From IMG/VR virus record IMGVR_UViG_3300042301_001934, positions 1-31,049 of that record: a DNA stretch of 31,049 nucleotides; one strand, written 5' to 3'. The stretch's first letter is position 1; every line of letters begins with the position of its first letter. A model generated the notes under the pieces. It was not told where the DNA came from. It saw nothing but the letters and a program-made list of their open reading frames with translations, and did no database searches. The position numbers were made by a program, and so were the translations under genes. The stretch comes from a virus. Below are positions 5,649 through 30,920 of this stretch, in pieces.

Positions 5649-6983
5649 TTATAGTTTTCGTTTAGCAAAATTATTAAAGTAAGTAGCCAATAAATACACA
5701 AAGCAGTCAACTAAGTGCATACCAAATTCAGTATTACCACTTGTTTTGTATAGCTTATCGCTACCATCCATAGTTTGCGCAATTTGCATGTCGTGTATTA
5801 ATTCTTTGCAATTTACACCACAAATGTTTATTCTAGGATGATTTTGTAAAATATTATTTACAAAGATACGTAATTCAGTATGTGCTGTTGCCTTGGTATA
5901 GTTTAGCAATGGCTTAGACATTTGCGATAACCCTAAGTTTAATTCCGTTCTAATTATGTTGTGCATGGTTGTGTTGATAGAATCATAACCAGCATTTCTA
6001 GCACCGCCAGCAGGATCAGAAGTAACCAAAAACACAGCACCATGATAATCGGATTTAATTCTAGTTAGCAACTCTTTTAGTGGGCAATTATTGACTTTGT
6101 AAGACTTGATTACATTCAAAAAACCACCTTCGACAAATTGAGATACTACACACGTTGCAGGGTCAATATTGAAGTCAAAAGATAAGTATAAAGGTAACTG
6201 CCTATTGTAGATTAAAGGCACTTTCGATACGTGCTTATCTTGGTCGAATGCGTAAAAATATGGGTTTTTGTTTTCCTCAATACCCCAAAATCCATGCACG
6301 TTAACATTGAGTAAGTTTTGCCTATTGCCATAGTTTAGTTCCAATGTACGCAAATAGGCTTCCTGGTCGATGTATTCATTGTGTAAGTAGGTAGAATGAT
6401 TTATGTGTATATCACCTTCAAATCGTTCGTGCGCTTTGTATGAATCTGAATCGCTGAAGAAAAATGACTTTAACCAATGCTTCTCACTAACTGGGTTAAA
6501 AGATACAATAAGTTGCAATGTTTTAGCCTTTGGAGTTCTAAGGACCGAGTTAATCATTGTAACTTGGTCTTCTTTACACTTATCAACCTCATCTATCCAA
6601 ATATGTGTTGCGTCTGAAATACCCTTAGTCTTTTCGGCATCGTCTAAGCCAAACGGCAAAAGTTGTTTGCCTGTTAGCTTGTTTGTGAATATCATTGAGC
6701 TATTGTAAGCCTCTGAATATTCAAATGAATCTTTGTATTTTGAGTTCTTGATATAATTTACAATATCCCGAAAAGTAGTATCTCTTAACGTGGTCTTCTC
6801 ATGCCTACAATAAACAATATTAATATGTTCTTCTAAGAATGTGAGTGCTAATAGTTTAAGGATTACATGGTTTGTTTTCCCACTACCACGGCCACCAAAT
6901 AAAACTAAGTACCTATGATTTGATTCAAGTATAGGTATAAAATGTTTCGAGTATTGGTTGCGTTCAATTCTAACTAACTTCAT
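5649..6983 (-). CDS. terL: Terminase large subunit
   Basis: 444 residues, a normal length for TerL. The N-terminal ATPase has Walker A GGRGSGKT (residues 30-37) and Walker B IWIDE (D131/E132), followed by SFNPV (161-165), typical of the coupling region. The C-terminal RNase H-like nuclease starts with LSFDFNIDPATC (metal-binding D270) and continues with TSDPAGG (D323). It packages DNA into the prohead by translocation and makes headful or site-specific cuts. It overlaps the small subunit stop by one base and is followed 2 nt later by the tail chaperone gene. Relatedness to PBSX/P22-type large terminases is likely from the motif spacing. Confidence 0.96.
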   Translation of the reverse strand: MKLVRIERNQYSKHFIPILESNHRYLVLFGGRGSGKTNHVILKLLALTFLEEHINIVYCRHEKTTLRDTTFRDIVNYIKNSKYKDSFEYSEAYNSSMIFTNKLTGKQLLPFGLDDAEKTKGISDATHIWIDEVDKCKEDQVTMINSVLRTPKAKTLQLIVSFNPVSEKHWLKSFFFSDSDSYKAHERFEGDIHINHSTYLHNEYIDQEAYLRTLELNYGNRQNLLNVNVHGFWGIEENKNPYFYAFDQDKHVSKVPLIYNRQLPLYLSFDFNIDPATCVVSQFVEGGFLNVIKSYKVNNCPLKELLTRIKSDYHGAVFLVTSDPAGGARNAGYDSINTTMHNIIRTELNLGLSQMSKPLLNYTKATAHTELRIFVNNILQNHPRINICGVNCKELIHDMQIAQTMDGSDKLYKTSGNTEFGMHLVDCFVYLLATYFNNFAKRKL

Positions 6984-8057: not shown

Positions 8058-8444
8058 TTATTCCAAAACACTAGATTCTGCGGTTATCCAGCATTTGTAT
8101 CGATTAACATTAAAAAATCCATTACCTTCATCTTCTTGGATAGGTCTACCACGTTCGATATAGGGTGTTAATCCTAATCGTTTGATGAAGTGCTTGCATC
8201 GGTGTATGGTCCAACCGAAATGGTGCGCTATCTTGTATGGCGACATGATTTCGGCATTGAGTTTCAAGTAGTCGGTTTGTTCATCGGTTAAGTCGCCATA
8301 GTATCGTGAGCGGTCGGCTTTAAGGTTATTGGCTTGAAGGAACTTAGATAATGTGTTTTGGCTAATACGTATTTCTTTGCGTATTTGTGGTCCTGTTAAG
8401 GCTTGGAAGTTATCGAGTATAAATTTTTCTTGTTGTGGTGTCAT
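8058..8444 (-). CDS. Helix-turn-helix DNA-binding protein
   Basis: 128 residues with two HTH-like helical units in a row. The first is near residues 15-37 (TGPQIRKEIRISQNTLSKFLQ), the second near 65-90 (SPYKIAHHFGWTIHRCKHFIKRLG). The C-terminus is Gly/Arg-containing and acidic. Probably a transcriptional regulator or a DNA-binding packaging accessory. It is followed by the palindrome at 8007-8020 and the promoter of the packaging operon, so control of late genes is a sensible hypothesis. Confidence 0.65.
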   Translation of the reverse strand: MTPQQEKFILDNFQALTGPQIRKEIRISQNTLSKFLQANNLKADRSRYYGDLTDEQTDYLKLNAEIMSPYKIAHHFGWTIHRCKHFIKRLGLTPYIERGRPIQEDEGNGFFNVNRYKCWITAESSVLE

Positions 8445-8730: not shown

Positions 8731-9393
8731 TTAAAATAAATTAGCCTGAATAGTTGGTGAATAACTAGCGTCATATCTAGTATTTTCACCTTTAGGGTAT
8801 GATTCTATATCAAATTTTAAATTTAATTTCATATCTTTTATTTGTTTCTTATTGCCTAATAAATAAATATATCTATGTTTTGGCTTACCCTTATAGTATT
8901 CAAATCCTAATCTTATTGCATCCTCTATTGATTTAATACCTATATCAAATGCTGATTTTCGGTGGTATTCTTTCCCATCTTTAAAATAAACCCTTTTACC
9001 CTCACTAAGACCAGTATATATAAAATTAGTAGCTTGGTAAATATACCCATGATGACCTTGCTCGCTATCCGCATAGCTAATTATTACTTTTGGCTTTGGT
9101 ATTAATTTTAAACTTTGACTGATAAAATAAGAAACTGTATTTAATGGTAATCCTTCATTCACAACTAATCTATTCAATTCTATACATTCATATCCTTTTA
9201 TAAATTCGTTTAAATTTTTGTTAGCTGTTATGCCAAATGACATAACCCCCTGCAATATATTACCATCATACAGACCAAATGTGTAAATACTATTTGGGAT
9301 TCTATGTGCATAATGTTTTTTTAAAAACCATTCTTTACATAAATAGCTGTCTATTGATTTCACAATATATTTATCTTTTATACTTTCGTTCAT
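8731..9393 (-). CDS. mom-like: Mom-like adenine hypermodification enzyme (GNAT fold)
   Basis: 220 residues. The pattern ELNRLVV (72-78), ISYADSEQGHHGYIYQATNF (105-124) and an early KKHYAHR segment (25-31) is what I associate with the Mom family. Phage Mu Mom converts adenine to N6-carbamoylmethyl-adenine and so protects phage DNA from restriction. The Tyr-Ala-Asp and Gly-His-x-Gly-x-Ile-Tyr motifs are the strongest link. The protein ends in QANLF, a sliding-clamp-binding type peptide also seen at the C-termini of the two methyltransferases. No com-like translational activator was recognised. It could instead be another GNAT-type acyltransferase. Confidence 0.7.
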   Translation of the reverse strand: MNESIKDKYIVKSIDSYLCKEWFLKKHYAHRIPNSIYTFGLYDGNILQGVMSFGITANKNLNEFIKGYECIELNRLVVNEGLPLNTVSYFISQSLKLIPKPKVIISYADSEQGHHGYIYQATNFIYTGLSEGKRVYFKDGKEYHRKSAFDIGIKSIEDAIRLGFEYYKGKPKHRYIYLLGNKKQIKDMKLNLKFDIESYPKGENTRYDASYSPTIQANLF

Positions 9394-9403
9394 AATTTTA
9401 TTT

Positions 9404-9565
9404 TTAGTTATAGTAAGTAATCAACATTTCTCTCCGTATAGCATTAGCAAGCATTAAGTCCTCTATTAGTTGCTGATTCGTACTGCGTGACATCAATACG
9501 TTCGCATTGGCTATGTTAACTTCTAGGATTAGCCATTCAGGTAGGCATTGGTAGTCAATGGTCAT
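9404..9565 (-). CDS. Hypothetical protein, 53 aa
   Basis: Small gene whose ATG overlaps the stop of the VRR-NUC gene (ATGA, 9565-9562) and whose stop lies 10 nt before the Mom-like start. Sequence begins MTIDYQCLPEWLILEVNIAN and continues with a helical, Met/Leu-rich C-terminus. The coupled start argues that it is a real gene. Function unknown. Confidence 0.65.
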   Translation of the reverse strand: MTIDYQCLPEWLILEVNIANANVLMSRSTNQQLIEDLMLANAIRREMLITYYN

Positions 9566-9903
9566 AAGTAAAAATGTGTTTTTACTATTTCTTTGAATTG
9601 ATCTAAGGACCTACAAATAATGTAAATATGGCCAAACGTTTCAATTTGCGCTTGAAATACTTTTTGCTCTGGGTCCTGCGTTCCTGAATCTGTTTTTAAC
9701 TCAATATAAACAGTCTTTGCGTTTGGGCAAACTAAGACCAAATCAGATACGCCTGATTTGACTCCTTTAGCTTTTGCCATTGCTCCTGCTATTTTATTTT
9801 TTGAATTATTATCAACTGCGAATAAACATTTGTGTTGTTGCAAGTGGTTATTATTAAACCACATTACTATTTGTCCTTGTAAAATTTCTTCTTGTCGTGT
9901 CAT
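9562..9903 (-). CDS. VRR-NUC domain nuclease
   Basis: 113 residues from ATG at 9903. It matches the small phage VRR-NUC (PD-(D/E)xK) nucleases: GVSDLVLV (51-58) supplies the metal-binding Asp, IELK (67-70) supplies the E-x-K pair, and Q80/Q85 lie in the following helix. These proteins are structure-specific nucleases in replication or recombination. An in-frame ATG at 9939 would add 12 residues, but that part runs through the repeat block at 9916-9934, so the downstream ATG is preferred. It overlaps the following 53-residue gene by 4 nt. Confidence 0.85.
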   Translation of the reverse strand: MTRQEEILQGQIVMWFNNNHLQQHKCLFAVDNNSKNKIAGAMAKAKGVKSGVSDLVLVCPNAKTVYIELKTDSGTQDPEQKVFQAQIETFGHIYIICRSLDQFKEIVKTHFYL

Positions 9904-9915
9904 TTTTTTTATTTT

Positions 9916-10134
9916 TTTGTATAGACCTGTAGTAGGCATGTAGTAGGCACTTTTTAATTTCGGGTACTACACTTTTAATCAATGTTCATGCGTGTTTCAT
10001 CGTTTGTATAGACCTGTAGTAACCACTTTTACTTAAAAACTTATATAAATATACAATCATATTCATTTGTAAAAATATTTTCATTCGCAATAGAAAACTC
10101 CAAAATATGGTTATACGCCTACTACGCCTACTAC
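9916..10134. repeat. Iteron-like repeats around an AT-rich core (candidate origin or control region)
   Basis: Gap between the primase-helicase stop and the VRR-NUC start. GTAGTAGGC occurs at 9929-9937 and 9940-9948 on the plus strand and, inverted, as tandem copies at 10117-10125 and 10126-10134. Related TGTAGTA-type copies lie near 10015 and, inverted, near 9964-9971. A 19-bp exact direct repeat TTTGTATAGACCTGTAGTA is at 9916-9934 and 10003-10021. Between the repeat blocks, 10025-10085 is almost all A/T. Iterons beside an unwinding element next to the initiator-type gene would fit a replication origin. Confidence 0.5.
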
Positions 10135-10138
10135 ATTT

Positions 10139-12328
10139 TTAGTTAAATGGTTGATTATCAATGTTTTGTGTATTTTCTCCGCTTACTACAATTTTTAGCA
10201 AATACACCATTTTTGGGTGGCCATCTACTCTTTTTGTCTTTTTTATGTAACCTAATCGCGTCATTTCTTTCCCTATTTTGTCTAAAGTTAGTTTTTGCTG
10301 TGTGTTTTTTTCTAAAAATACTTTTATGTCGGTTGCAGTCATGTAGGTCCCATAAGTTTCCATTTCGACCTTTTCGAAGTATTTATTTATAAGTTCATAC
10401 TCTAAACTAAAAAATTGAAATTGATCTGTTGAACCTTCTAACATTGCAATATCATCTTTTGTTAGCCTAAAATCAAACCCATCTTTATAAAGTTTGTAGG
10501 CTTCAGCAAATAAATCATTTTTATCTATTGCGTTGTATTCTTTATGTCGTATTGATTCAACATAGACTGGTATTAAACGCCTGTTACCTGTTGCGTCTGA
10601 TATTAGCCTTTTTTCGTTTGATGTGCCACATAGGACCGCTAAACGTTGCAAATCTACGTTACCCTTCCCGTATGGCTCCCGCAATGAAAAAACCTGCTTA
10701 GATAACAATTCTTTTAGCCTTCTTTCATCTGTTTTAGACTTACCACCCATTTCATCATCCATAATGATTATTTTTTGAGTCATAAGAATATCATCATCTT
10801 TACCCGCGTCAAGTTTTGATTCAGCATAATACTTTTTCAATTCATTTGGCAAAAGCCTTCTAAAAAACTCCGTTTTACCTGTGTTTTGCTTTTCTCCAGC
10901 AAGGCAATACATAAGCGGTGAATGTTGACCATATACACTAGCTACTATTGAAACTAACCATTTACGACCTAATAAATAAGCAAGTTCAATATTATCTGTT
11001 TGAATGCACGCGAATAACTTTTCTATATTATCTTCAGTGGTGCAAGGGTGCTCTTCAAACCATTCTTTTATTGGGTTGTATTCGTTTGTAAATTCGCTGT
11101 CAATTATACGTTCTAAAAGTTCAAATGAAAGTTTTGGTATTTGTCTTTTAGCCTTGATGTAAACGCTATTAAAGTGTTTACGTTCCATTGGTATAAATTC
11201 ATTGTTTAATTTTATCTCAATGTATCGCGTTATTTCGTTGCGCTTAAATTCGTAGTTTAGTTGTAAAAACGCTTCTAATTGAGGGACTAAACTTTCTTCA
11301 TCATCTTTTGCAATTTCGGTGCCATGTTCTACTTGGTCCAATATGCTTTCTAAGTCATTATCATTTATTGGTGAATCTGAAAATTTACGTATGTTTTCTT
11401 TTACTTGCTTCGCGTCTAATCCTGATTTTTTACCCTGGCTCGCTATTGTCGCTATCTCCTTTGTTTCTGTAGAGTATGTTTGTATGCCTGCTTGCTTTGC
11501 ATAGTAATACAATGTCGCAATAGTAGTTTTTCGGCTCCCTGAAGCGCGCAAACAATGGTTATATTGCTTATCGCAAATGTTACTATCATATTTCGATGAA
11601 TTTTGACTAATAGTGTGGAAATAACCGCGCCCACCTTCTCCAAAATGTTCAGATAAAGCAAATGCACATCTTAGCCATTCATGGTAAGAATCGCAAATAT
11701 TTACGCCTCTATCTTGAATCTGTTGTATAATTTTCTCAAAGTCTGATTTTACATAAATAACTTTAGGATATGTTTTAGGCTCTTTCTTTTTTGGATATTG
11801 AGTAAATTTTACTGGCTTATGATTAATCCAAATATCAGGGTCGTAAGAAACAAAACGCGCGCGACTAACATTTACTGAAGTTGGATCAATAACTATTTGA
11901 TATTTTTCAAGTAAATATTCTCCTATCCCTGCAAATGCTTCGCGGTGCCGTTTACCATCTATTTTAAAAATGCAACATAAGCCATTCCCACGAATAGAAG
12001 TAAAAATAGAATAAATGTGTGGGTCACATGCAAGTAATGATTTGTAGTGATTAACCTCGCTATTTAGGCTATCAACGTCAATTCCAATATAACCGCTATG
12101 GTCTATAATTTCACTATCTTTTCTTTCGCGAAATGCACCTGATAAAGTGACGTTTGGGGCCTTCTTTTTTGCTTGGTCCTGTGCATCAGGATCGTTTGCC
12201 ATTGCTCTAATTGGTAAAACAATGTCTTGATAAAACCCATCTTTTATTCTTTCTAAAAAAATATCAATTGGTATTTGTTCCTGACTTTTGGTGTCGCTCC
12301 CGCGCTTATAAATACTAATGTTTTGCAT
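10139..12328 (-). CDS. Primase-helicase (BT4734-like N-domain, PriCT, VirE helicase)
   Basis: 729 residues, multidomain replication protein. Residues ~35-175 look like a BT4734/VirE-N primase-polymerase-like domain (HSGYIGIDVDSLN with D84 and D86; SIRGNGLCCIF at 111-121; R156). Residues ~195-285 resemble a PriCT region (SYHEWLRCAFALSEHFGEGG). Residues ~410-650 are a VirE-family helicase with Walker A GEKQNTGKT (478-486) and Walker B IIIMDDE (520-526), then SNEKR and NRRLIPV. The C-terminus resembles a small winged-helix unit. It would prime and unwind phage DNA. Its start overlaps the SF2 helicase stop by 14 nt; the repeat-rich gap follows its stop. Confidence 0.88.
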   Translation of the reverse strand: MQNISIYKRGSDTKSQEQIPIDIFLERIKDGFYQDIVLPIRAMANDPDAQDQAKKKAPNVTLSGAFRERKDSEIIDHSGYIGIDVDSLNSEVNHYKSLLACDPHIYSIFTSIRGNGLCCIFKIDGKRHREAFAGIGEYLLEKYQIVIDPTSVNVSRARFVSYDPDIWINHKPVKFTQYPKKKEPKTYPKVIYVKSDFEKIIQQIQDRGVNICDSYHEWLRCAFALSEHFGEGGRGYFHTISQNSSKYDSNICDKQYNHCLRASGSRKTTIATLYYYAKQAGIQTYSTETKEIATIASQGKKSGLDAKQVKENIRKFSDSPINDNDLESILDQVEHGTEIAKDDEESLVPQLEAFLQLNYEFKRNEITRYIEIKLNNEFIPMERKHFNSVYIKAKRQIPKLSFELLERIIDSEFTNEYNPIKEWFEEHPCTTEDNIEKLFACIQTDNIELAYLLGRKWLVSIVASVYGQHSPLMYCLAGEKQNTGKTEFFRRLLPNELKKYYAESKLDAGKDDDILMTQKIIIMDDEMGGKSKTDERRLKELLSKQVFSLREPYGKGNVDLQRLAVLCGTSNEKRLISDATGNRRLIPVYVESIRHKEYNAIDKNDLFAEAYKLYKDGFDFRLTKDDIAMLEGSTDQFQFFSLEYELINKYFEKVEMETYGTYMTATDIKVFLEKNTQQKLTLDKIGKEMTRLGYIKKTKRVDGHPKMVYLLKIVVSGENTQNIDNQPFN

Positions 12329-17535: not shown

Positions 17536-18327
17536 TCAAAACAATGAAGTTTGTGCCAAATAAGGTTCTAATCTTTTATTGGCTAATTCAACATACGTTT
17601 CGCTTATTTCACTTCCAATCCAATTTCTGTTTAATACGTGGCTAATTTTAGCGGTTGTCCCACTTCCCATAAAGCAATCATAAACCAAATCGCCTTCGTT
17701 ACTCCAGCTATTTATATGGTCGCCACAAAGGTGTTCAGGAAATGTTGCAGGGTGTCCGTAAGCAGCTTCGTCTTTTTGCCCAAAACCTGCCCCATTTGCA
17801 TATCGCCAAATATTAAATCTCATTCCGTATTCATCAAATTCAATCTTCCCTTTCTTTTCTAATTCTCCATTCTTTTGCCTTGTTGATGAATTTCCAAAGC
17901 TACTCGTCCATCTATTCTTTCTGTCTTTTAGTGGATTAAATGTCTTTGGTTTTCCTTTGCTAAAAACAAACATATACTCCATTACTTGATGATAACGGTT
18001 TGAGCTTGGCATACTCATTCCTGCCTTTTCATAAATCATTGTATCGTGTAGTTTAAATCCAATTTCTTTAAAAAATAACGCTTGTCTAAAACTCGTTCCG
18101 CTTTCACTTCCATCAATGGTTGCATCTCCCACTATCCAAACCACAACTCCTCCATCTTTTATTACACGATACAATTCTTTAGCAATATCCTCAAATGGGA
18201 AGCTAAATCCGTTATAATACCTCATATCATCATATGGTGGCGATGTTACTACTAAATCCACAAAGCCATCAGGCATCCGTTTCATTGTTTCGATATTACT
18301 TTCGTTGTATATTTTATTTATTTCCAT
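17536..18327 (-). CDS. DNA methyltransferase 1 (N6-adenine/N4-cytosine, beta class)
   Basis: 263 residues. Motif IV TSPPYDD (28-34) precedes motif I DCFMGSGTT (217-225), the order of beta-class amino-methyltransferases. The SPPY version of motif IV is common in N4-cytosine enzymes but also in some N6-adenine enzymes. A recognition region with GHPATFPEHL lies before motif I. The C-terminus QTSLF matches sliding-clamp-binding peptides. No restriction endonuclease gene is adjacent, so it is an orphan enzyme, probably for restriction evasion or DNA marking. The gene is bracketed by its own 16-bp inverted repeats in the manner of an integron cassette. Confidence 0.92.
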   Translation of the reverse strand: MEINKIYNESNIETMKRMPDGFVDLVVTSPPYDDMRYYNGFSFPFEDIAKELYRVIKDGGVVVWIVGDATIDGSESGTSFRQALFFKEIGFKLHDTMIYEKAGMSMPSSNRYHQVMEYMFVFSKGKPKTFNPLKDRKNRWTSSFGNSSTRQKNGELEKKGKIEFDEYGMRFNIWRYANGAGFGQKDEAAYGHPATFPEHLCGDHINSWSNEGDLVYDCFMGSGTTAKISHVLNRNWIGSEISETYVELANKRLEPYLAQTSLF

Positions 18328-18486: not shown

Positions 18487-19293
18487 CTACCATAACCTAG
18501 TTTGAGCAGTAAAGTCTGCATATCTTTTTTTAGATTTTTTAAATTCATTTTCATCTTTTTCTATTACTATAAAATTTCTTTTCAACTCATTACAAGCGAT
18601 AGCAGTTGTTCCACTTCCACCAAAGAAATCTGCGACTATATCATTTTCATTTGATGATAGTTCGATTATTTCTTTTATAAGACCTATTGGTTTCTGTGTG
18701 GGATGAATTTTATCAGTTATTGAATACTTTTTTACTTTATTATAGTATTTATTATTATCTATTCTATTCAATGCAGTTCCGTAATCATAAATCCTTACTA
18801 TGTATTCTATGTTTTGTGAAAATCTATTTTTGTTTATTATTGATAATGGTTTTTCCCAAATCAAAATTGAAAACATTAAATTATTTTGTTCTGCCCACAT
18901 TGCATAGTATGGGACTAGTGTATCATTACAAAATATGTAAGCATTCATTATTTTCATTACTCTTTTAAATTCTGGCAATAATCTATTTACATCTTTATCT
19001 GTAAAATCAGACATACTTTGCATCATCATTCCATCTGCTTTAAATAAGTTACTATTAGCAAATGTGCTGTTTGTTTCGTATGTATTCCTTTCTGAATATG
19101 GTTTACCTGGACTTTTTTTGTGCCAATATGGTGGGTCTGTAATTATTAAGTCAATAGAATTATCATCTATCAATTTAATTAACTCGAAAGAATTTCCACA
19201 AGAAATAGTATTTACCAAAGGCACTGCACCTAACAAGGTATTGCCAAAAGTGGGGCTTCCGTGCTTTCTATAAACTTTTGTATCTATATTCAT
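18487..19293 (-). CDS. DNA adenine methyltransferase 2 (N6, beta class)
   Basis: 268 residues from ATG at 19293. Motif IV ITDPPYW (51-57); HPTQKPIGLIKEII upstream of motif I DFFGGSGTTAIACNELKRNFI, the typical layout of beta-class N6-adenine enzymes. The C-terminus QTRLW is a sliding-clamp-binding type peptide. The first 23 residues are encoded by the 3' half of the attC-like hairpin at 19226-19360 and are not typical of the family. A GTG at 19224 (..VPLVNTISCGNSFELI) fits the expected domain start better and begins right after the G^TT crossover, so it may be the original start. No partner endonuclease is visible. Confidence 0.9.
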   Translation of the reverse strand: MNIDTKVYRKHGSPTFGNTLLGAVPLVNTISCGNSFELIKLIDDNSIDLIITDPPYWHKKSPGKPYSERNTYETNSTFANSNLFKADGMMMQSMSDFTDKDVNRLLPEFKRVMKIMNAYIFCNDTLVPYYAMWAEQNNLMFSILIWEKPLSIINKNRFSQNIEYIVRIYDYGTALNRIDNNKYYNKVKKYSITDKIHPTQKPIGLIKEIIELSSNENDIVADFFGGSGTTAIACNELKRNFIVIEKDENEFKKSKKRYADFTAQTRLW

Positions 19294-27302: not shown

Positions 27303-27832
27303 TGTTTTGCTACGATTATAGCTTCTTTAATTATCGATTCTTTTAAAAATTCCTTTTCGCGTTCAGTTAATCCCGACCATTCGCCAAATCTATCTGTATT
27401 GCCTTCTACTTTTTTATGTTCAAATGAATCAGCATTACCAAATAACACCTCACTACCAAACTTATAAACACGAAACGCACGTTCCATACTGCCACTAAAC
27501 TTTAGGTTAACGTTTGATGTTTCACGACCTTGTATATCTCTAAATTGATTATACCCACCTTGTAGAAACATTGTTGATTTTGTTTTTTTGCCTGTTTTAC
27601 CTATTGGCTTAAACGCTGCCTTACGGATAAACTTTGACTTACTAAAGTATTCAGGCTTTGCGCTATAAGTTCCTATATTTTGACCATCGCTATTTTTGCC
27701 TTCACCAAACACTCTATCCTTCCATTCTGCTTCAAGTTCTACCATACTTTGAGTTGCAATTATATCAGGCATCTTATCGTCTAAGTTGCTTGCTATTTCT
27801 TGCAGTCTTTCTGATAGTAATTCAAAACTCAT
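27299..27832 (-). CDS. Head-tail joining protein (gp10/virion-morphogenesis-like)
   Basis: 177 residues. Shape resembles the HK97-gp10/phage virion morphogenesis family: an N-terminal helix (LLSERLQEIASNLDDKMPDI), a mid-part with many basic residues (KSKFIRKAAFKPIGKTGKKTK), then GRETSNVNLKFSGSMERAFRVY and a helical end. These proteins join the head to the tail. Its start shares the last base with the preceding gene. Confidence 0.6.
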   Translation of the reverse strand: MSFELLSERLQEIASNLDDKMPDIIATQSMVELEAEWKDRVFGEGKNSDGQNIGTYSAKPEYFSKSKFIRKAAFKPIGKTGKKTKSTMFLQGGYNQFRDIQGRETSNVNLKFSGSMERAFRVYKFGSEVLFGNADSFEHKKVEGNTDRFGEWSGLTEREKEFLKESIIKEAIIVAKQ

Positions 27833-28809
27833 TATACGTTAGATTTTTTTTGTACGCCAGAGCAGTCAACACATTTACAACCGCCATCATTTTGCACTAA
27901 GAAGTTACGAAGTCCTAACATTGCATTTGTCATGTAGCTATTATAAGCATCAAACGCTGCTTCTGCTTGTGCTTTAATTTTTTCCTCCTTATAAATCGTC
28001 AAGTAATTTAAACGATTATTCATTAAGATTTCATCATAAAACATTGCGCCACATAATTCAAACGCTGCTTGCCCTATTAGGTTATTTGTTGCAAGGTCGC
28101 AAATCAAATCTGACAAATCACATTTGCATATGACATCTAATTCAATTCCGTATGCTTGTGAAGTATTAGCAACACCATTGTTTAACCCTGCGGTCCTAAC
28201 ACATTCGTTCTTTTTAGTATTACCACAACCAACACCGCAATTTGGTTCGTTTGAGTAAACACTTATTTCGCTTGGTAAAGTTACTTGGACCTCGCTACCT
28301 TTGATAGTAATGTTTAATTGAAATTCGTTTATTTGTCCAGCAACTAGATTAATAGTTGGATTATATTCAACACCGAACGTGTCGGCTATTTTTAAATTTG
28401 TTGTCCCTGTGTAATTAGAATAAATACGAACTCTTGAAAGTTCTATTTTTCTGAATCTACAATTAGGCTTTTGTTTGTAAATTACTATACCACGTCTTTC
28501 ACCGCTTGTGCCTGAAGGAATAACAGTTGACTTAAATTCGCCAGTTGCCCATGTATTGGCAGGTATTGAATTTACACGATAATTTGAAGCTATATACGCT
28601 TGTATATCGTTGTTTAAACGCATCATAGCACGTCTACGAATATCGGCTAAGTAGTTATAGCCTGTTATCGTTTTTTCGTCATTGTATTGTGACGCTGTTT
28701 GTATTGTAATGCCAGGGTAATCGGTTATGAAATACCCGCTTAATGAATCGGCATCAGCACCGCTACATTGTGCTTTAATTCCGATAATATTTTCAAAGCA
28801 ATTTGCCAT
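27832..28809 (-). CDS. Virion structural protein after the capsid gene, 325 aa
   Basis: Cysteine-rich (13 Cys), with clusters EPNCGVGCGN, VICKCDLSDLIC and CKCVDCSG. The N-terminal third is helical around DIRRRAMMRLNNDIQAYI; the middle is beta-rich. Position right after the capsid gene, behind a terminator, fits a connector/adaptor or a minor capsid protein. I cannot name a family. Confidence 0.65.
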   Translation of the reverse strand: MANCFENIIGIKAQCSGADADSLSGYFITDYPGITIQTASQYNDEKTITGYNYLADIRRRAMMRLNNDIQAYIASNYRVNSIPANTWATGEFKSTVIPSGTSGERRGIVIYKQKPNCRFRKIELSRVRIYSNYTGTTNLKIADTFGVEYNPTINLVAGQINEFQLNITIKGSEVQVTLPSEISVYSNEPNCGVGCGNTKKNECVRTAGLNNGVANTSQAYGIELDVICKCDLSDLICDLATNNLIGQAAFELCGAMFYDEILMNNRLNYLTIYKEEKIKAQAEAAFDAYNSYMTNAMLGLRNFLVQNDGGCKCVDCSGVQKKSNV

Positions 28810-28862: not shown

Positions 28863-29924
28863 CTAATCGCAACTTACAGCAGTTTCAGGGCAAACATCAT
28901 ATTTGATTAAGCCTGTGAATCCTTCATCAATACAACCTTGTGTAGGTAATATCAATGTTTTGTAATAGCTACGAATAGCGTATTGCCATTTTTGACATTT
29001 TGGTTCGTAAACAATATCCAAATCGAATAACAAACCACTAGGGTCTTCGATTACCGTATGTAAGAAAGTTTCACCTTCACGAATCAACGATGTAGGGTCA
29101 ACATTATCCCAACGACTTGGACTTTGACGTGAAGCGAACATGCCAGCATTTTTTGACCATGAAAGCAAGTTGATAACGCCAGGTAGTGCAGCGATTAATA
29201 CTTGGTTGCCCGCTGTATCAGGTGCGCAATTCGCATCAACCATATCTTTATCGTAAAATGCAGGGAAACGATCTATCATGCTAAGGTTTACGCCTCCGTC
29301 GTTAAAACCACCTGCTTGTACGCCTTTAGCGAATTTCGCTACAATACGATTACCCAACAACATTGGAGTTACACCGCCGAATCCTGCATCAGCATAATCA
29401 GCCATGATGTCAACATCGACATTGAATACTGGTGCGCCTAATGCGTTAATAAGTTTCAATGTGTTTGAGCTTTGTTGTGAACCTGTACAAACTGAAGTTA
29501 AAGCAGCAACGTTAATTTTTGCTTTAATCTTTTGCATTTGGTCCCACAAGTTAGCTGCGAATACTTCCATAACTTCCATAGAACCTAAGTCACGCAATGA
29601 AGCGATACCTATGTTTTTCCATGTAGGCATTGAATAGCAGTCGAAGGAATTAAATGTTGTACAAGTAGTCAAAGTACCTGAATCAGTACCTGCACCTGTA
29701 CAATCGAATGAGCCACATGCAACGGGTTCATCGCATTGTGAAGCAGCGTAAGTAATAGAGTATTGAGAATCTTTACCGTTCTCTTGAATCATACGTGCTT
29801 GAACCGCTGCACCATTTGCAGGTGATAAAGCTAAGTCAACCGTTCCTGCGGGTGCTTTATATCGACCTAACTGATATAGGTCATTAAGTTTTGCCTGTAT
29901 ATTAGGCGTGCAATTATTTGCCAT
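28863..29924 (-). CDS. Major capsid protein
   Basis: 353 residues; an HK97-type capsid protein by context and layout. It follows a scaffold-like gene and precedes head-completion genes and a strong terminator. The sequence has an N-terminal helix, a Cys-rich insertion (residues ~63-97), a long helical part (SLRDLGSMEVMEVFAANLWDQM), and a C-terminal beta domain. Twelve cysteines, unusual for a capsid, suggest disulfide bonding. The function is inferred from position, size and composition; no motif is decisive. Confidence 0.8.
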   Translation of the reverse strand: MANNCTPNIQAKLNDLYQLGRYKAPAGTVDLALSPANGAAVQARMIQENGKDSQYSITYAASQCDEPVACGSFDCTGAGTDSGTLTTCTTFNSFDCYSMPTWKNIGIASLRDLGSMEVMEVFAANLWDQMQKIKAKINVAALTSVCTGSQQSSNTLKLINALGAPVFNVDVDIMADYADAGFGGVTPMLLGNRIVAKFAKGVQAGGFNDGGVNLSMIDRFPAFYDKDMVDANCAPDTAGNQVLIAALPGVINLLSWSKNAGMFASRQSPSRWDNVDPTSLIREGETFLHTVIEDPSGLLFDLDIVYEPKCQKWQYAIRSYYKTLILPTQGCIDEGFTGLIKYDVCPETAVSCD

Positions 29925-30074: not shown

Positions 30075-30920
30075 TTACCCTGTAACTTGGGCCATTTTAG
30101 CTGCTAAGCCAGTGGCACCAATTGCAGGTGGTGTATTTATTTTTTGTGTTTCCGTCGGTATTGTTTTACGTTCAGTACCTTCAGATTTTTTTGCTAATCC
30201 GTATTCTTCAACTAAGTCACCAACTAATCCTTCGAAAGTTTGCAAAGTAGTATCGTTCTTTTTTAATGGTTCATCTTTTAAAGCATCGAATAAAGCAATG
30301 TTACCATCCTCTTTAAGTCTTAATTGTGCTTTTTTAGATAATTGACCCATGATTAATTCAGCAGCCTTTTGAACTGGTATAGAAGTTTTGCCATCTAGTA
30401 CCTTAAGGATTTGCTCGTTGAGTTTACCATCTAACTTAAACTTGTTTATAGCTTCTTCGTATTGATTTTTGTACTTAGTTTCAAGTTCAGGTATTTGGCT
30501 TTCAAATTCAGATATTTTACCATTGGCAATATCCAACATTGCTTGTAGTTCCGTTTCAGTTGAACCACTTTTCTTTGAGGCTTTTTCTTTCAACAATTCA
30601 ATTGCTACGTCATAAGTTTTACCTTCGTTTTCAGGGTTATTTAAAACGTCTTCAACTTCTTTATTAGTCAAAGGTGTTCCAAATGCTTTGTTAGCTTTTA
30701 GTAACGCCTCTTTCAAATATTTACCCTTCAATGATTTACGCTCATCATTAAACTTTCCGTTTAATTCACTTTCGATAAACGGCTTAGCATAGCTTTGAGA
30801 AGCCTTTAATACGCTATCAATTATTTCAATGTTATCATCATCAGCAAGTAATTGAGCGACTACATTTTCAGCGTCTTGTACGCCTAAAGATTCTAAAAGT
30901 TTTTCTAATTTTTTTGACAT
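30075..30920 (-). CDS. Capsid scaffold-like protein
   Basis: 281 residues, almost entirely helical and charged (KLEKLLESLGVQDAENVVAQ; long coiled coil around ELQAMLDIANGKISEFESQI), with a Pro/Thr-rich linker and an Ala-rich C-terminus (TPPAIGATGLAAKMAQVTG). This is the pattern of internal scaffolding proteins. It stands immediately upstream of the capsid gene, the standard place for a scaffold. The cleavage or release mechanism is not apparent. Confidence 0.8.
   Translation of the reverse strand: MSKKLEKLLESLGVQDAENVVAQLLADDDNIEIIDSVLKASQSYAKPFIESELNGKFNDERKSLKGKYLKEALLKANKAFGTPLTNKEVEDVLNNPENEGKTYDVAIELLKEKASKKSGSTETELQAMLDIANGKISEFESQIPELETKYKNQYEEAINKFKLDGKLNEQILKVLDGKTSIPVQKAAELIMGQLSKKAQLRLKEDGNIALFDALKDEPLKKNDTTLQTFEGLVGDLVEEYGLAKKSEGTERKTIPTETQKINTPPAIGATGLAAKMAQVTG

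Follow-up and report, generated by a model that had tools for sequence, protein, structure and literature searches.

The segment spanning positions 9918-10190 of the analysed DNA, a linear IMG/VR virus record of 31,049 bp referred to here as the window, is very probably a replication origin of a tailed phage, belonging to the SaPI/PICI rep-ori type and read by the phage's own VapE primase-helicase. Its location, spacing and conservation, the co-variation of its iterons with the VapE C-terminus and the fold of the initiator all support this reading, which is the most likely one from the comparison of sequences. An origin had been suggested in an earlier note on this DNA, and that suggestion gains support from comparative evidence, namely the recurrence of the element 3′ of VapE, its conserved spacing, the co-variation of iterons and winged helix, and the likeness of the initiator to SaPI PriRep1.

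In the SaPI/PICI family, which comprises phage-inducible chromosomal islands of both Gram-positive and Gram-negative bacteria, the origin lies immediately 3′ of rep and consists of two sets of short iterons around an A/T-rich region (PMC6092414). The window has the same organization: its sites lie at the 3′ end of the primase-helicase gene, which ends at 10139, and two arrays (9918-10024 and 10117-10190) flank an 80% A/T core. The initiator, VapE, is a member of the D5/SaPI Rep helicase family. Several features are different from the SaPI/PICI rep-ori, including the iteron TGTAGTAGGC, a fused N-terminal primase of the BT4734-like_N/PriCT_2 type and the incompleteness of one half of the element. 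Furthermore, the element belongs to a phage that encodes terminase and tail proteins, unlike those of SaPI/PICI satellites. Since the window encodes a terminase large subunit (5649-6983) and a tape-measure protein, it is a tailed phage and not a satellite, and it does not fall under the definition of a PICI, which is a helper-induced satellite whose own set of packaging and tail genes is incomplete; what is PICI-like here is the type of origin, not the whole element. Among named phages, those of Cellulophaga, Nonlabens and Flavobacterium have the closest full-length homologues, so that a Bacteroidota host is likely judging from these sequence relationships.

The nonamer GTAGTAGGC occurs in four exact copies in the window, two per strand, all within 9929-10134 (9929 and 9940 on the plus strand; 10117-10125 and 10126-10134 on the minus strand). 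The four perfect copies reported earlier, two direct and two inverted at the opposite end, are thus exact and absent elsewhere in the window. In 100 dinucleotide shuffles, in which 9-mers with at least four G/C were counted, no more than three copies fell within 260 bp, compared to the four observed. The two weaker copies of the earlier note (TGTAGTAACC and TGTAGTACCC) are real, as is its 19-bp direct repeat, TTTGTATAGACCTGTAGTA, which is exact at 9916 and 10003; a further weak copy, TGTAGTAAGC, lies beyond the range of 9916-10134 that it had considered. Including degenerate copies, up to nine TGTAGTAGGC iterons surround the core (Table 1). The stretch of about 60 bp described as nearly pure A/T is indeed A/T-rich, although "nearly pure" overstates it: the best 60 bp (from 10027) reaches 87%, a value exceeded at only 22 of the 30,989 positions of the window (top 0.1%). 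That the helicase gene ends beside the segment was correctly noted, whereas the claim that no gene uses the segment depends on the start of the VRR-NUC gene, the longest reading frame of which starts inside, at 9939. An internal ATG at 9903 is probably the true start, and in this case the segment is left non-coding.

Table 1. Features of the candidate origin and its flanking genes; positions refer to the window.
Feature	Position	Strand	Remarks
VRR-NUC domain gene	9562..9903	-	Downstream of the origin; Pfam VRR_NUC 9e-7; PHROG 824, 2e-30; probable start at 9903
Putative degenerate iteron TGTATAGACC	9918..9927	+	Slot 1 of the spacing plan; half of 19-bp repeat
Iteron TGTAGTAGGC	9928..9937	+	Slot 2; contains exact GTAGTAGGC at 9929
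Iteron TGTAGTAGGC	9939..9948	+	Slot 3; contains exact GTAGTAGGC at 9940
Iteron TGTAGTACCC, inverted single site	9962..9971	-	Slot 4
Putative degenerate iteron TGTATAGACC	10005..10014	+	Slot 5 of the spacing plan; half of second 19-bp repeat
Iteron TGTAGTAACC	10015..10024	+	Slot 6
A/T-rich core, proposed melting region	10025..10116		80% A/T over 92 bp
Iteron CGTAGTAGGC	10117..10126	-	Slot 7
Iteron TGTAGTAGGC	10126..10135	-	Slot 8
VapE/D5-type primase-helicase gene, proposed initiator	10139..12328	-	729 aa; Pfam VapE-like, PriCT_2, BT4734-like_N; PHROG DNA primase 3e-125
Iteron TGTAGTAAGC	10181..10190	-	Within 3′ end of VapE gene; orientation mismatches the canonical site expected nearby
Winged-helix codons of VapE C-terminus, proposed iteron reader	10190..10405	-	About residues 642-713; AF2 models; RFX-type matches; partial Mantel

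Nearly all of the likely genes of the window share one strand. As a check on the origin, the GC skew of the window falls monotonically, has similar values on the two sides (-0.07 and -0.087) and shows no extremum at 10 kb; the skew is uninformative here because it is flat and the likely genes share a strand. Some other genes of the window were noted. A gene for a Mom-like DNA modification protein (8731-9393; Pfam Mom 8e-39) lies two genes downstream of VapE, beyond the VRR-NUC gene, and two neighboring genes at 17536-18327 and 18487-19293 both match one DNA methyltransferase family (PHROG 67). Four long reading frames are without a PHROG match (269-2011, 27832-28809, 28863-29924 and 30075-30920), and for the last two a Pfam match is absent as well.

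The element is found in many other phages and contigs. Pattern scans of viral and genome contigs for TGTAGTAGG-type clusters in both orientations gave 28 qualifying loci among the 259 of all scans, most of which adjoin VapE homologues 24-50% identical to that of the window; most contigs matched by one tandem-pattern scan were without a two-orientation cluster. A VapE of the window type, in some cases truncated by the contig end, is present in L028, L032, L036, L049, L081, L111, L124, L133, L158 and L171, and L010, which is almost identical to part of the phage of the window, carries the element unchanged. A shorter, helicase-only VapE of about 420 aa is accompanied by a different, compact layout of TGTAGTAGG iterons in L011 (3939-4120), L052, L096, L115, L137 and L167 and in the genome contig L013 of Porphyromonadaceae bacterium H1, the element of which is arranged as in the viral contig L011; the half-arrays of L011 and L052 seem to be placed back to back, with A/T-rich DNA flanking the pair instead of separating its members. 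Two-orientation TGTAGTAGG clusters were also seen in L160 (5529-5763) and L243 (7229-7461), where no VapE homologue was detected on the stretch examined and the initiator could lie off the contig or have diverged too far. In Flavobacterium phage mymlan6-1 (L262), a AAGGTAACC cluster (5737-6010) lies about 600 bp beyond VapE, past a nuclease gene, indicating that the origin is separable from the initiator gene.

VapE relatives that lack TGTAGTAGG carry other repeats at the same place, for example TGTAAAGGA, CTCTGTAAC, TTGTTGCCAC, TTGGACAGCT and GGTTAAGGAT. When 77 VapE loci were gathered with a VapE alignment and their 3′ flanks checked, an 8-mer in at least four copies was present in 57 of them, compared to 9 of 542 control windows of the same loci, although many of these loci are interrelated and the raw counts overstate their independence. 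The other 20 have fewer than four copies of any 8-mer in the 3′ flank, and no repeats were found 3′ of VapE at the tested threshold in phages phi46:1 and P12024S (VapE 35% identical); therefore, the spacing plan described below is not universal.

A set of 35 non-redundant origins with 27 different iteron 8-mers, thinned by iteron and spacing rather than by tree, reveals one spacing plan that is common to 27 or more iteron sequences: three sites in tandem (9-10 bp apart), about 22 bp, one inverted site, about 44 bp, two tandem sites, an A/T core of about 104 bp, and the mirror image of this half. The mirror half can be complete or partial, and is mostly present in the fullest cases (L268, L270 and L320). 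The spacing in these 35 origins departs strongly from randomness: opposite-strand pairs peak at distances of 20-24, 40-44 and 110-114 bp, and only 10 same-strand pairs are separated by 30-59 bp, versus about 110 expected. Against a template built from 12 loci bearing other iterons, with a match defined as the correct strand within 3 bp, the window fills six of eight slots, a number reached by 3 of 5000 randomizations that kept tandem pairs. The two empty slots, expected at about 9921 and 10006, are occupied by TGTATAGACC at 9918 and 10005, each directly upstream of a good copy. This pair, which would complete the 3+1+2 half, probably accounts for the 19-bp repeat. The VapE-proximal half of the window is incomplete, and its outermost site, at 10181, is wrongly oriented for the canonical slot. 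The complete half lies on the side away from VapE in the window, L028, L032 and L158, but on the VapE side in L081, L133 and most of the remaining loci; thus, the orientation to VapE is not fixed, as expected of a cis-acting origin. A literature search that was incomplete for key SaPI papers found no earlier description of a fixed spacing plan, and a search by motif letters returned unrelated primers only.

Similar spacing extends to elements of Gram-positive bacteria. Streptococcal satellites have the same or a related fine spacing, as in Javan217 (three tandem sites, 46, one, 106, one, 46, three), and in the S. thermophilus phage SW6 the series runs two, 127, two, 48, one, 20, one. A partial similarity is seen in Enterococcus phage phiFL4A and Javan288, and among the Gram-positive elements compared, phiJB and SG586P1 do not clearly fit the plan.

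The initiator itself points to the same family. The only sequence match of the VapE profile in the PDB is 7pds, SaPI PriRep1 with dsDNA (3.3e-14), which is also the closest in fold (VIA Z 25.0, rmsd 5.0, 372 aligned, residues 289-717). The C-terminal region has a predicted winged-helix fold in AF2 models that is most RFX-like; searched alone in Foldseek, this domain gave no match below 0.001, with RFX-type winged helices ranking first. Among 40 non-redundant VapE proteins, identity over residues 640-712 predicts iteron similarity after removal of ATPase identity (partial Mantel, r 0.219, p 0.0005), while in the reverse test ATPase identity has no predictive value once the C-terminus is accounted for (r -0.013, p 0.58). 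We therefore propose that the C-terminal winged helix, as modeled, would read the iterons. No single-residue specificity code was found in the C-terminal alignment, and TGTAGTAGG readers differ in the recognition helix. Within one clade, a wing residue (VapE ~695-705) shifts with the iteron (NSK/GTCCA, NSI/GCAACA and NSL/ATCAAC).

By analogy with work on SaPI and SCC elements, VapE, the product of the gene ending at 10139, would bind the TGTAGTAGGC iterons in the two opposed arrays through its winged helix, two hexamers would assemble head-to-head on these arrays and melt the A/T core in an ATP-driven step, and the fused primase would then prime synthesis. The full array of the family holds 3+1+2 sites, which suggests, as a hypothesis, one iteron per hexamer subunit and two head-to-head hexamers per origin. 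Comparable arrangements are known. In SCCmec, the isolated C-terminal domain of the D5-family helicase Cch2 binds repeats directly downstream of its own gene (PMC7581432), as would VapE in the window; Cch2 differs in the three 5-nt iterons reported, in its separate primase-polymerase and in residing on a mobile cassette rather than in a phage. SaPI origins have already been likened to that of SV40 in the literature (PMC9894130). The origins of SV40 T-antigen and papillomavirus E1 have oppositely oriented repeats that load two head-to-head hexamers, as proposed here, but these proteins use an N-terminal origin-binding domain, other site sequences and spacing, and eukaryotic hosts, and their structural similarity to the VapE of the window is weaker and limited to the helicase domain.

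The position of the segment between two co-directional genes, with a regulator-like protein encoded nearby (8058-8444; PHROG transcription regulator 1.5e-5), raises the thought that the repeats are operator sites for a regulator of the downstream VRR-NUC and Mom-like genes. This is improbable: a match to the Bacteroidota-type -7/-33 promoter was not found in the segment, the far-side neighbors vary among phages (a DEAD helicase in L032, L049 and L081, and VRR-NUC in the window), the iteron sequence co-varies with the VapE C-terminus, and the plan, with its A/T core of about 104 bp, holds in either orientation to VapE. Recurrence, spacing, co-variation and kinship to PriRep1 fit an origin and are hard to reconcile with sites that are operators alone. 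There is a similarly small chance that the segment is an origin read by another protein, either a factor from the host or one of the phage's small proteins, with VapE serving as the helicase only. A shared host reader might explain why TGTAGTAGG is common to VapE proteins only 24-26% identical, but in other VapE clades the same plan is built from wholly different iterons, and iteron similarity tracks the C-terminal domain of VapE rather than its ATPase domain.

Repeat arrays are generally known at packaging (pac/cos) and partition (parS-like) sites too. Such a function is very unlikely here, given that the terminase large subunit gene is about 3 kb away, that the element follows VapE in phages and satellites alike, and that an A/T core is retained between opposed arrays. 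That the repeats are functionless (chance occurrences or decaying simple repeats), as the A/T-rich surroundings might suggest, is equally hard to credit; no shuffle reached the copy number, and the recurrence of geometry and copies in unrelated contigs already contradicts this explanation. An origin read by its own VapE is the reading that we prefer.

With somewhat less than even confidence, we tentatively extend this reading to VapE/Rep helicases encoded by phages and satellites of two or more bacterial phyla, which may share one fixed blueprint of two opposed six-site arrays (3+1+2). Each subunit of the two head-to-head hexamers would then take one iteron, and the iteron sequence would be freely switchable by way of the C-terminal winged helix, with many orthogonal initiator-origin pairs as the outcome. 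The origin type is already known; what stands out is the fixed plan across phyla with switchable iterons, a layout shared by dozens of further phages and satellites of phages, including ones with a different repeat sequence. To our knowledge, most environmental phages have origins that are yet to be mapped. Given a spacing plan that outlasts full replacement of the repeats, origins could be located and initiators assigned from sequence alone, and the count of 6+6 sites opens to direct test the question of how these helicases load themselves onto duplex DNA as double hexamers. The co-varying winged helix would offer natural, possibly orthogonal, initiator-origin pairs.
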